DNA of 64,000 nt from assembly GCA_919901565.1 (NCBI GenBank), contig CAKKPE010000050.1:1-64000 (forward strand), read 5' to 3'. This document shows positions 555-54,333 of this stretch, one piece after another. Numbering within the stretch: the first letter of the stretch is position 1; every line of letters begins with the position of its first letter. Origin of the DNA: a bacterium. GTDB taxonomy: Bacteria > CG2-30-53-67. Under the pieces are notes generated by a model that was given only the letters and a program-made list of their open reading frames with translations, searched no databases and was not told where the DNA came from. The position numbers were made by a program, and so were the translations under genes.

Positions 555-1330
555 TTTGCACTCCTCTCCATTAATTCTTTTTCAAGATCTTCAGTGATCG
601 GGCCCACTGCGCTGCCTGAGATGAACTGGCGGACAAAGGGATTGTCCGTATTCTGGATCTCCCTTGGGGTGCCGACCTGCAGGATCTTTCCCTTATAGAG
701 CATGGCAATTCTGTCCGCTATCTTGTATGCACTGACCATGTCATGGGTGATCGCCACAGAAGTTACGTTCAGCTTTTCCCGCATGCCGATGATCAGGTTG
801 TTGATCATGTCGGCGTTGATCGGATCAAGTCCGGTGGTCGGCTCGTCATACAGGAGGATCTGGGGTTCCAGAGCGATGGCCCTGGCCAGACCCACCCGTT
901 TCTGCATGCCGCCGGAAAGCTCGGACGGGCGAAGGTCTTCCACATCATAGAGCCCCACCATGGCCAGTTTTTCACGGGCTTTTTCCCGGATCTCCTGGTC
1001 CGAAAGGCCGGTATGCTGCTTCAGGCCGAATCCCACGTTTTCCCATACCGAAAGGGAGTCGAACAGGGCCGCCGCCTGAAAAAGCATCCCGAATTTTTTT
1101 CTTACACTGTTCAGGTCCTGTTCATTCAACTGGGTAATATCTTCGCCGGCTACGTAGATCCGTCCCGTGTCCGGACGGAGGATGCCGATAATGTGCTTGA
1201 TCAGGACACTCTTGCCGGATCCGCTCCCTCCGATAACGACCATGCTCTCTCCTTCCTGGATCTCCAGGTCCACGCCCTGAAGGACCTGGTTGTTTCGGAA
1301 GGATTTTTTCAGCTCTACAATCTTGATCAT
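551..1330 (-). CDS. mlaF: MlaF-like ABC transporter ATP-binding protein
   Basis: Cytoplasmic ATPase (259 residues, normal for MlaF) that would power phospholipid movement through the MlaE permease. Visible motifs are Walker A GGSGSGKS near residue 34, ABC signature LSGGMQKR near 140, Walker B ILLYDEPTTGLDP and switch His in AITHD. It lies between mlaE, 71 bp upstream, and mlaD, which overlaps it by 4 bp. An ATG start is used. The family call is secure; the direction of lipid transport cannot be told from sequence. Confidence 0.92.
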   Translation of the reverse strand: MIKIVELKKSFRNNQVLQGVDLEIQEGESMVVIGGSGSGKSVLIKHIIGILRPDTGRIYVAGEDITQLNEQDLNSVRKKFGMLFQAAALFDSLSVWENVGFGLKQHTGLSDQEIREKAREKLAMVGLYDVEDLRPSELSGGMQKRVGLARAIALEPQILLYDEPTTGLDPINADMINNLIIGMREKLNVTSVAITHDMVSAYKIADRIAMLYKGKILQVGTPREIQNTDNPFVRQFISGSAVGPITEDLEKELMERSAK

Positions 1331-1401
1331 AGGTTTTCAGTTCTCAAAAACGAATGTCCTGCCTCTCCGGGTTCTTAAACACAACGCTGTTCCAGACCGG
1401 A

Positions 1402-2202
1402 TTAGAACAAGATGGCCGTCAGGAAATAGTCCGATATCAGAATCAGCATGGAAGAGATGACCACGGAACCCGTGGTGGCTTTCCCCACCCCTTCGGCTCC
1501 TCCCTGGGTGTAAAAGCCTTTGTAGCAGCCGATTAGGGAGATGATCAGCCCGAAAACAGCAGCCTTCAGCAGCCCGCTGTAGATGTCGTTGAACGTCAGG
1601 TAATCCCAGGTTCTGCGGAGATAGACGGTCCGATTCGCATCCAGGATGGTTACGCTCACAAAAAGACCACCGTAGATTCCCACGATGTCCGAGAGTACCG
1701 TCATGACCGGGAGCATGACCAGGCCGGCGATCAGCCGGGGAACCACCAGATATTTGATCGGGTTGGTGGCCAGGGTGTAGAGTGCGTCAATCTGTTCGGT
1801 CACCCGCATGGTCCCGAGTTCCGCTGCCATGGCCGATCCGGCCCGTCCGGCGACGATCAGTCCGGTGAGCACGGGGCCGAGTTCCCGGGTCATGGAGAGG
1901 GCCACCACCGTGCCGACCAGGCTTTCGGCATTGAAGCGCTGGAATCCGGTATGGGTCTGAAGGGCGAGGACCATTCCGGTAAAAGTGGCCGTGATCAGCA
2001 CCACCGGGATGGAGTGTACACCCACCTCCAGCATCTGTTTAATGGTATTCCTTAAAAAGAAAGGGGGCTGGAAGGCCCAGACCAGGGCCTTGAAGAAAAG
2101 CAGGATCACTTTTCCGATCTCCTCGATCCCTTCCATGATCCAGTCACCCAGGACTTCCAGTAAGTCCGTCACGTAACCGGCCCCTTGACCTTTAAGCTCC
2201 AT
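1402..2202 (-). CDS. mlaE: MlaE-like lipid ABC transporter permease
   Basis: Integral inner-membrane permease of the MlaE/YrbE family (266 residues). It has several hydrophobic segments and the conserved stretch TRELGPVLTGLIVAGRAGSA, followed by AAELGTMRVTEQIDAL, the cytoplasmic coupling region. An upstream in-frame extension exists, but the ATG at 2200-2202 is preceded by a GAGGAGAAC ribosome site, so the shorter start is chosen. It overlaps the 3' end of alr by 11 bp and is probably cotranscribed with rplI-dnaB-alr. Confidence 0.9.
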   Translation of the reverse strand: MELKGQGAGYVTDLLEVLGDWIMEGIEEIGKVILLFFKALVWAFQPPFFLRNTIKQMLEVGVHSIPVVLITATFTGMVLALQTHTGFQRFNAESLVGTVVALSMTRELGPVLTGLIVAGRAGSAMAAELGTMRVTEQIDALYTLATNPIKYLVVPRLIAGLVMLPVMTVLSDIVGIYGGLFVSVTILDANRTVYLRRTWDYLTFNDIYSGLLKAAVFGLIISLIGCYKGFYTQGGAEGVGKATTGSVVISSMLILISDYFLTAILF

Positions 2203-4769: not shown

Positions 4770-5216
4770 TCAATTCTCTTCTACGATCCAGACCTTGAGA
4801 TTCGCAGTCACATCTGTGTGCAGCTTGATGGGGACGCTATAGACTCCGAGTTGCTTGATCGGTTCTTCCAGAAGGATCTTCTTCTTGTCTACTTCAATCC
4901 CTTCTTCCTTCAAGGCATCCGCAATGTGCATGGTCGTGACCGAACCGAAGAGGCGGTCGTTTTCGCCCACCTTCTGTGAAAGGGTCACGGAAATGGACGC
5001 TATTCTCTGTGCAAGGGCCTCGGCAGACTTGATGGTCTTCATGATCCGGTCCTGCACCAGTTTCTTCTGATGTTCAAGCACCTTGACATTACGGACCGTG
5101 GCCTCGGAGGCCTTCCCCTGCGAAATCAGATAATTCCGTGCATAGCCGGGTTTGACCTGCACCAGATCACCGATCTTCCCGAGATTTTCAACATCCTCCC
5201 TGAGAATGACTTTCAT
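4770..5216 (-). CDS. rplI: 50S ribosomal protein bL9
   Basis: Ribosomal protein bL9, 148 residues. The N-terminal RNA-binding signature is MKVILREDVENLGKIGDLV with GYARNYLI, and the long helix and C-terminal domain are present. The ATG at 5214-5216 follows a GGAGGTATC ribosome site, so the longer open frame upstream is rejected. First gene of the inferred rplI-dnaB-alr-mlaEFD transcript. rpsF and rpsR, common neighbours in other bacteria, are not adjacent here. Confidence 0.96.
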   Translation of the reverse strand: MKVILREDVENLGKIGDLVQVKPGYARNYLISQGKASEATVRNVKVLEHQKKLVQDRIMKTIKSAEALAQRIASISVTLSQKVGENDRLFGSVTTMHIADALKEEGIEVDKKKILLEEPIKQLGVYSVPIKLHTDVTANLKVWIVEEN

Positions 5217-5253
5217 GAACGATACCTCCAATATAACAATAAAATTATGATGA

Positions 5254-5282
5254 AATATATAATAGGGGTGAAGACGTGTCAA
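5254..5282 (-). promoter_or_regulatory. Sigma-70-type promoter for rplI operon
   Basis: On the minus strand TTGACA (5282-5277) and TATATT (5259-5254) are separated by exactly 17 bp, about 35 bp upstream of the rplI start. Near-consensus housekeeping promoter; transcription start expected near 5247. Confidence 0.75.
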
Positions 5283-5398
5283 GGTCAAAACGTTTTGGAA
5301 AGGTCTTCGGGGCGGAGCTTTTGCGGGTGTCATTCAAAAATCATTGTGAGATATCAAATTTTTATGCTAACTTGGGGTAAACTTGAATCAGGATTCTT

Positions 5399-52239: not shown

Positions 52240-52538
52240 GGAACACCCTATTAGTTTTTCTTAAAAGGCTATAAGGATTTTTAATAATATAGCACAGGTT
52301 GCCAAGGTGGTCAACTATTAACAAAACTTATTGAGAAAGGTTTTAAGGGCGGCTATCCGCCGGGTTTTTAAAATATTTCTGTAATTTTTCTGTTTTTTCC
52401 GCGACTTCTTGCCCTGAAATGTTACTAACCATATAGCAGATCGCAGTTTGATCTATATTATAAAAACAGAGGCTGAATTCCGGTTCCGGGTTGGCCGGGG
52501 CAGGATTCTCATTATACATTGATAGAGGAGGTTGTAAA

Positions 52539-53156
52539 ATGTTTACACCGAAGATTTTAAAATTATGGACCGCACTTTTGTTGATTTTAGGGCTGACCGC
52601 AACTTCCCAGGCCGCCCTCATTGACCGAGGGAGTGGGCTGATTTATGATACCGACTTCGACATAACCTGGCTGCAGGACGCCAACTATGCCAAGACCTCA
52701 GGCTATGATGCGGATGGAGCGATGAACTGGTCTGGCGCCATGACTTGGGCCGATGGCCTGGTATATGGGGGGTATAATGACTGGCGGCTTCCCACGTCCC
52801 TGAATCAGAATGGCTCCGGCCCTTGTGGTCCAGGCTACGACTGCACGGGGAGTGAGATGGGGCATCTGTATTATACAGAGCTGGGAAACCCGGCGGGCGG
52901 ACCGTTAACCAACACCGGCCCCTTTACCAACCTGCAGCCCTACTACTGGTCGGGTACGGATTTCAGTTCTGGCTACGCGTGGGCCTTCTATTTAAGTGGC
53001 GGCTTACAGACCGGCGGCCCCAAGGGCGACGGCTTCTACGCCTGGGCTGTTCGTCCCGGCGATTCAGCAGCCGTCCCGGAGCCAGGCACATTACTTCTCC
53101 TCGGATCCGGGCTGGCCGGCATGGCGGCATGGAGAAAGAGGACCGGCAAACGCTGA
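52539..53156 (+). CDS. DUF1566/Lcl-domain protein with PEP-CTERM signal
   Basis: 205 residues from the ATG at 52539, ribosome site GAGGAGGTTG. Signal peptide ending LTATSQA, a DUF1566-like body (YDTDFDITWLQDANYAKTSG, GGYNDWRLPTSLN, YYWSGTDFSSGYAWAFYL) and a C-terminal sorting signal VPEPGTLLLLGSGLAGMAA with basic end WRKRTGKR. Exported and exosortase-processed by prediction. The second PEP-CTERM protein of the window. Confidence 0.85.
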   Translation: MFTPKILKLWTALLLILGLTATSQAALIDRGSGLIYDTDFDITWLQDANYAKTSGYDADGAMNWSGAMTWADGLVYGGYNDWRLPTSLNQNGSGPCGPGYDCTGSEMGHLYYTELGNPAGGPLTNTGPFTNLQPYYWSGTDFSSGYAWAFYLSGGLQTGGPKGDGFYAWAVRPGDSAAVPEPGTLLLLGSGLAGMAAWRKRTGKR

Positions 53157-53163
53157 TGATTTT

Positions 53164-54206
53164 GTAGAAGCGCCGGCCTCGGCAAAACTATCCTCGCACC
53201 TGGAAGGTGCTCCTACAATGGGATTCGGCAATCGCACCTGGAAGGTGCTCCTACGGGGGAATCTGTCCGGTAGCACCTTTGGAATTGCACGGCCCCACCC
53301 ATCGTAGGAGCGCCATCCCTGGCGCGACTATACCTCATACATACAATGCCAAAACGGATAATTCCTGAAGTCTTCGACCAATCCCTTTCGAACCGGATTC
53401 TCCAGACAATACCTCACGGTTTGCATTAACGCCTTTTCGTTCCTGATGCCATGCTCATAATACTGTCTATCCCAGACCGAACCTTTACGATTCAATGCCT
53501 TGTTTATTTCATTGGCAGTAAAGCTCTTCAAAGAATGCATGACCTTTGATAAGGCGTCATCCTCGCACCTGGAAGGTGCTCCTACAATGGGATCCGGAAA
53601 ATCGCACCTGGAAGGTGCTCCTACGGGGGAATCTGTCTGGCCGAACCTTGGGAGTTGCACGGCCCTACCCATCGTAGGAGCGCCATCCCTGGCGCGACCA
53701 TCATCACATCTGAAAGGTACTCCTACGGGGGATTGTATAGGATTGGTTTGTGCGGGACGGGCATCTTGCTGCGATTGGTTTGCCTTCAACTCAGCAACGA
53801 AGTGGAGATGGTCCGGCATTACCACGGCGGCAATCAGGGTAATACGATCACGGTCGTTCAGCCATTGAAGAGCATCAAGCACAATCATGGCAGCCGCTCT
53901 GTGCAAAAAAATCTTTTCGCGGTTTTTTGTATTGGTTGTGATGAAGTAATAAAACCCGGTTTCAACATATCGTTCCTGCCTCAAGTTTTTTTGATGTGGT
54001 TTATTATTCAGCATGTTTTGCCTCAAGGATGTCCGTATGCAATCGCACCTGGAAGGTGCTCCTACGGGGGAATCTGTCCGGTAGCACCTTTGGAATTGCA
54101 CGGCCCCACCCATCGTAGGAGCGCCATCCCTGGCGCGACCATTATCGCACCTGGAAGGTGCTCCTACCTTGTAATTCGTGCTCTCGCACCTGGAAGGTGC
54201 TCCTAC
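53164..54206. repeat. REP/BIME palindromic repeat cluster around and inside a transposase gene
   Basis: Eight copies of a 23-base unit, TCGCACCTGGAAGGTGCTCC then TAC, start at 53194, 53232, 53563, 53602, 53704 (divergent), 54043, 54145 and 54184. Inverted-type units, GTAGGAGCGCCATCCCTGGC then GCGA, start at 53304, 53674 and 54115, with a degenerate one at 53164. Each contains a short hairpin (GCACC/GGTGC or GCGCCA/TGGCGC). A composite of about 98 bp recurs at 53231, 53601 and 54042. Confidence 0.92.
53328..54014 (-). CDS. REP-associated tyrosine transposase (RayT/TnpA-REP) with in-frame REP insertion
   Basis: 228 residues from the ATG at 54014 (GAGG six bases upstream). N-terminal part FYYFITTNTKNREKIFLH and the HUH motif VMPDHLHFV; after about 65 residues the C-terminal part resumes with SKVMHSLKSFTANEINKAL, NRKGSVWDRQYYEHGIRNE (catalytic Tyr) and CLENPVRKGLVEDF. 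Between them, 53556-53740 consists of REP units, translated as repeats of SPVGAPSRCD. The frame stays open, so the enzyme may still work. Single-strand transposase that acts on REP sequences in related bacteria. Confidence 0.85.
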   Translation of the reverse strand: MLNNKPHQKNLRQERYVETGFYYFITTNTKNREKIFLHRAAAMIVLDALQWLNDRDRITLIAAVVMPDHLHFVAELKANQSQQDARPAQTNPIQSPVGVPFRCDDGRARDGAPTMGRAVQLPRFGQTDSPVGAPSRCDFPDPIVGAPSRCEDDALSKVMHSLKSFTANEINKALNRKGSVWDRQYYEHGIRNEKALMQTVRYCLENPVRKGLVEDFRNYPFWHCMYEV

Positions 54207-54333
54207 AGGGGGTGAATCTTAATGCCTATACCTGGATGTTTCAAGCCATAAATTTAAGCAGAAATTAACAAAACCTATAACATCTTCCCATGCATCCGTC
54301 AGGATAGGGGCCGCCTTTAAAGAACCTGCGGCA
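54015..54333. other. REP-containing intergenic region upstream of the transposase gene
   Basis: 319 bp between the start of the transposase gene and the 3' end of tatC. It carries three forward and one inverted REP units (54043-54206) and then unremarkable sequence to 54333. No gene. Confidence 0.7.

Follow-up and report, generated by a model that had tools for sequence, protein, structure and literature searches.

In-frame insertion of REP sequences between the HuH motif and the tyrosine motif of a RAYT (TnpA-REP) protein has been described before and is called unique to subclass 2.4 of TnpA-REP (PMC6006769, 2018). The same publication assigns RAYT group 4 of Bertels et al. 2017 to this subclass, for which its table lists NH[IFV]H, WQ and YIxNNP as typical motifs. 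Intragenic GTAG/CGTC REPs lying in frame are further known from many other genes, with the Rickettsia RPEs cited alongside (PMC3733652, 2013). Here, we describe a RAYT gene with such repeats from a window of 64,000 nucleotides (the whole stretch of bacterial DNA that was analyzed). As REP insertion into a RAYT gene is already known, this gene is a clear new example and a modest extension. It shares with subclass 2.4 the in-frame REP insertion between the HuH and Y motifs and differs in that its insert comprises a several-unit BIME plus an apparently older unit. With intragenic REPs and Rickettsia RPEs it has in common palindromic repeats that lie within genes, in frame, and code for short peptides, and a repeat copy in the ORF that is absent from homologues is found here as well. 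The host genes described in PMC3733652 mostly serve DNA repair, replication and other functions, whereas here the host encodes a transposase thought to recognise the repeats.

The RAYT gene and its insertion

The gene spans 53328-54014 on the minus strand (ORF call, profile matches), starts with ATG at 54014, ends with TAG at 53330-53328 and encodes 228 amino acids. A GAGG resembling a ribosome-binding site is seen in the sequence at 54021-54024 (minus strand), 6 nt upstream of the ATG. The preliminary description had placed a transposase gene at exactly these coordinates, and its match to NF047646 (REP-associated tyrosine transposase, NCBIfam; 123.3 bits versus the cut-off of 80, split over two stretches) identifies it as a RAYT. 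Y1_Tnp (Pfam PF01797) is matched by the protein too. Both the HuH motif (PDHLH, residues 67-71) and a single catalytic tyrosine with NP motif (YCLENP, residues 202-207, Y202 being catalytic) are present; catalytic tyrosine and NP are invariant across a 15-row alignment. The GC content amounts to 42-44% in both gene halves versus 53% for the window, and no strong match to this RAYT subfamily occurs in the other genomes searched of the same small phylum (8 genomes), so that the gene was likely acquired horizontally.

Seven homologues of 153-154 amino acids (L053-L059), which come from Desulfobacterota and gammaproteobacterial MAGs and reach 46-56% identity in the best segment, can be aligned over their full length with the window protein, only the middle of which is left unmatched. 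The profile from these seven sequences alone matches as positions 4-79 and then 78-154 in one open frame, with a clean break between positions 79 and 78. The two parts are separated by about 222 nt of inserted DNA (74 codons; 53559-53780, minus strand, ends uncertain by a few nt) that the homologues lack. The distance from HuH to YxxxNP is 54-58 residues in 78 of the 100 RAYT/Y1 sequences having both motifs and 56-57 residues in every member of the window's clade that could be measured; in the window protein it is 130. Among the listed close members (>200 bits) from 389 genomes of the class of L053 no split RAYT was found. The preliminary description had given the insert as about 185 bp (53556-53740); a REP array is indeed located there, but the full insertion is longer because a decayed REP of another type adjoins the array.

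The alignment also bears on the reading that the linker is ancestral coding sequence and that the gene was the source from which the flanking arrays were copied. Such an origin would agree with the insert holding all unit types of the flanks, and with flanks that are mutually identical over 99 nt while the insert differs. The linker occurs in no homologue, however, and in the homologues checked the cognate REPs (GTGGGAGC or GTAGGAGC) lie outside the gene, which is the canonical RAYT arrangement (PMC2817692). Since close homologues without repeats are also without the linker, it represents an insertion and not ancestral protein sequence. An ancestral linker is thus refuted by the homologue alignment and hardly credible.

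REP units inside and around the gene

The REP array inside the gene is BIME-like, about 180 nt long (53559-53740, minus strand) and open in the gene's frame. Its first exact unit, GTAGGAGCACCTTCCAGGTGCGA at 53563-53585 (minus), is read as VGAPSRC; a second one at 53602-53624 (minus) follows at 39 nt in the same frame, and the exact unit GTAGGAGCGCCATCCCTGGCGCGA lies in opposite orientation at 53674-53697 (plus). For the exact units, folding gives GTAG-footed hairpins of -5.8 and -7.8 kcal/mol, whereas the degenerate unit GTAGGAGTACCTTTCAGATGTGA at 53704-53726 (minus) has lost its hairpin and does not fold.

The array 3' of the gene (53190-53327, plus strand) contains units at 53194-53216 (minus), 53232-53254 (minus) and 53304-53327 (plus), the last of which abuts the stop codon. 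At its outer end a further, probably decayed unit is found at 53164-53187 (plus; five mismatches, weak alone). The array 5' of the gene (54041-54211, minus strand) contains units at 54043-54065 (minus), 54115-54138 (plus), 54145-54167 (minus) and 54184-54206 (minus). The unit nearest to the gene is thus on the minus strand at the 5' side and on the plus strand at the 3' side. The insert is 93% identical to the 3' flank over 140 nt (E 7e-52) and 91% identical to the 5' flank over 127 nt (E 1e-41), which bears out the earlier statement that it is built from the same REP/BIME units as the flanks with the frame remaining open.

Next to this array lies a decayed REP of about 30 nt (53749-53778, plus strand) that is part of the insertion. 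Its core GGGACGGGCATCTTGCTGCGAT at 53754-53775 resembles GTGGGAGCGGCATCTTGCCGCGAT, the REP flanking the homologue L053. A match with one mismatch over 16 nt is not expected in shuffled windows, and of 2951 randomly drawn window segments none reached the score of 53754-53775 against the REP set of the relatives. As the pattern was picked with the sequence already in view, these small figures make the case look somewhat stronger than it is. A decayed REP of the L053 type beside an array of the present type suggests two insertion layers, the putatively older one belonging to another REP type.

The exact 23-nt unit TCGCACCTGGAAGGTGCTCCTAC is present in seven copies in the 1-kb stretch around the gene, two of them inside it. 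Elsewhere in the genome it occurs only in degenerate form, on contig C95, and a reversed control pattern gave no match. For GTAGGAGCGCCATCCCTGGCGCGA three copies were counted around the gene (one inside it) and one on C95, where the array is small and sits 3' of an Lcl_C plus PEP-CTERM gene. Since units are carried by two loci only, these REPs do not form a large population in the genome, and a genome-wide proliferation is ruled out. Both REP arrays are located directly 3' of Lcl_C/PEP-CTERM genes (52491-53156 in the window, 12221-12907 in L079), which share 65% identity over about 220 nt.

Frame, divergence and predicted structure

The window RAYT is probably an enzyme with a tolerated linker, in which an older REP and a BIME-like array entered a loop, with the fold probably and the activity most likely kept. 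A REP unit of the older type would first have entered the gene in the loop that connects the HuH half (beta-3) to the helix leading to the DNA-binding and tyrosine half, and a BIME-like array of the present type would later have entered the same loop. The length of the inserted DNA is divisible by three and no stop interrupts the gene's frame, so that a disordered linker of 74 residues would result. The array may have been put in place either by single-strand transfer mediated by the RAYT or through recombination with the arrays that flank the gene; that the repeats were moved by the RAYT itself is what we infer.

The structure prediction agrees with a disordered linker. AlphaFold2 (15 sequences) predicted most of residues 21-80 and 154-228 at pLDDT values of about 95-98, and residues 83-150 fell below 50, i.e. 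the insert is predicted to be disordered. Among PDB entries 4er8, in which E. coli TnpA-REP is bound to a REP hairpin, matches best (E 3e-8), and the sequence profile leads to it as well. The insertion site falls in the loop between the strand carrying or following the HuH motif (beta-3 in the numbering of PMC6006769) and the next helix. The models therefore point to an intact RAYT core with the insert as a disordered linker off the catalytic core.

Compared with the 3' flank, the insert shows nine substitutions and a 1-nt indel between its first and last exact unit, all of them in spacers; the REP cores show no change in 70 positions versus nine in 64 spacer positions (p 0.0009). Units are spaced by 39 nt in the gene and by 38 nt in the 3' flank, and because of the latter spacing the flank array would run into a TAG if read in the gene's frame. 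By the 1-nt indel this stop is avoided and the frame remains open. The 39-nt spacing is only modest evidence for selection on the frame because it reflects a single event. An intact frame as proof of function has to be rejected: in simulated drift (indels not counted) the whole gene was stop-free in 33% of runs with 30 substitutions and in 11% with 60, so that in about one third of the former the frame survives without any constraint and alone is weak evidence.

A rival reading is that of a pseudogene at an early stage of decay, in which the array inactivated the protein and the frame is open by chance, as REP arrays are open in many frames. When the three arrays are read on both strands in three frames, seven of the 18 readings are indeed open by chance, and the insert must be of some age, given its spacer changes and the one degenerate unit. 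The protein has D182, within WDRQYYEHGIR (residues 181-191) and directly after W181, where a near-invariant Q is expected; the equivalent E. coli Q95 is among the residues involved in GTAG recognition (PMC6006769). With 30 of the 36 near-invariant positions retained, it ranks low within its clade. These two points and an allele known from one genome only speak against a tolerated linker; its own phylum (8 genomes), 193 relatives, viral contigs and plasmids yielded no close relative, carrying the insert or lacking it, by which the insertion could be dated. W, E, H and R of the GTAG-recognition set are retained. Against decay stands that the gene contains no stop or frameshift anywhere, that start, ribosome-binding-site-like motif and catalytic motifs are all present, and that the insertion has the right length modulo three and sits in a loop where other RAYTs carry REP inserts, with a spacing that keeps the frame where that of the flank would not. 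A pseudogene is thus unlikely. Of the two outcomes offered in the preliminary description, the tolerated linker fits best, given the intact frame, start, HuH motif and catalytic tyrosine and the position and spacing of the insert, whereas a silent scar in a decaying gene is less likely.

Placement among RAYT subclasses and related loci

The motif set of subclass 2.4 is absent from the window protein, which has DHLH, WD and YCLENP instead. In profile searches it scored 198.7 bits against relatives with DHLH / WQ / YCLxNP versus 84.3 bits against a 2.4-like (NHxH / YIxNNP) set. A tree of 40 rows places it in a group of 24 rows (95/87), while the 2.4-like rows form a group of their own (100/100) without it; an AU test does not reject a grouping of the window protein with the 2.4-like rows (p 0.29). 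The larger tree of 98 rows and 132 columns is poorly resolved and no weight is placed on its branching. By motifs, profile and tree the gene does not resemble a member of subclass 2.4, although a sister position is compatible with the AU test, and the statement of uniqueness probably needs widening.

RAYT group 3, or subclass 2.5 (Stenotrophomonas, Pseudomonas type; PMC6006769, PMC8266576), resembles the window protein in DHLH, in GTAG-footed REPs with perfect short hairpins and in WQ and D at the GTAG-recognition positions of the window's homologues. Of the motifs of this subclass (DH[LF]H, WQ, YI[VI]ANP) the window protein itself has only DHLH, with WD and YCLENP differing. Further differences are the tyrosine motif, which is YCLxNP in place of YI[VI]ANP, the relatives found, which are Desulfobacterota and gammaproteobacterial MAGs, and the insert, none being reported in subclass 2.5.

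REPs of the flanking type occur at the same HuH-Y site in RAYTs of other genomes (L050, L046, L033 and L036), the first three having NHxH and YIxNNP-like motifs and hence being 2.4-like by motif. Verrucomicrobia/Kiritimatiellae-type RAYTs (L068, L069, L070 with core 4905-5318, and L073 with core 2236-2571) carry a REP identical or near-identical to the flanking ones directly after HuH, at normal HuH-Y distance, and L070 has a second, inverted copy near the N terminus. They point the same way, to in-gene REPs outside subclass 2.4. That insertions into the HuH-Y loop arose in several RAYT lineages (2.4-like, the gene described here, L036, L068-L070/L073) and that, in addition, the in-gene hairpins are kept for self-recognition of gene or transcript, e.g. 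in autoregulation, is unlikely when taken together.

Some other transposase loci deserve mention. In L042 (G134:C113, core 1327-2001, minus strand) the HuH-Y linker consists of about 20 tandem IGQAQ copies and ends in the REP-like GGGGCCTGCCCCTAC, perhaps a REP-derived tandem expansion within the gene. In L138 (G425:C1, 4914002-4918164) the C-terminal part of the RAYT gene, about 150 bp, is repeated a short distance downstream and once more some 3.4 kb beyond. L081 (G000:C103, 38493-39404), close to the end of a contig, has a tandem pair of identical transposase cores of 366 bp at a distance of 546 bp, and G005, G055, G139, G167 and others show Y1 transposase matches in frames of more than 1000 amino acids, possibly fusions or long frames driven by GC content.

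In the case described here a repeat resides inside the gene for the very enzyme presumed to spread it, and the protein appears to have survived. This well-resolved example, apparently outside subclass 2.4 and with a putatively older repeat layer beside a younger one, suggests that RAYT proteins in general tolerate insertions in this loop.
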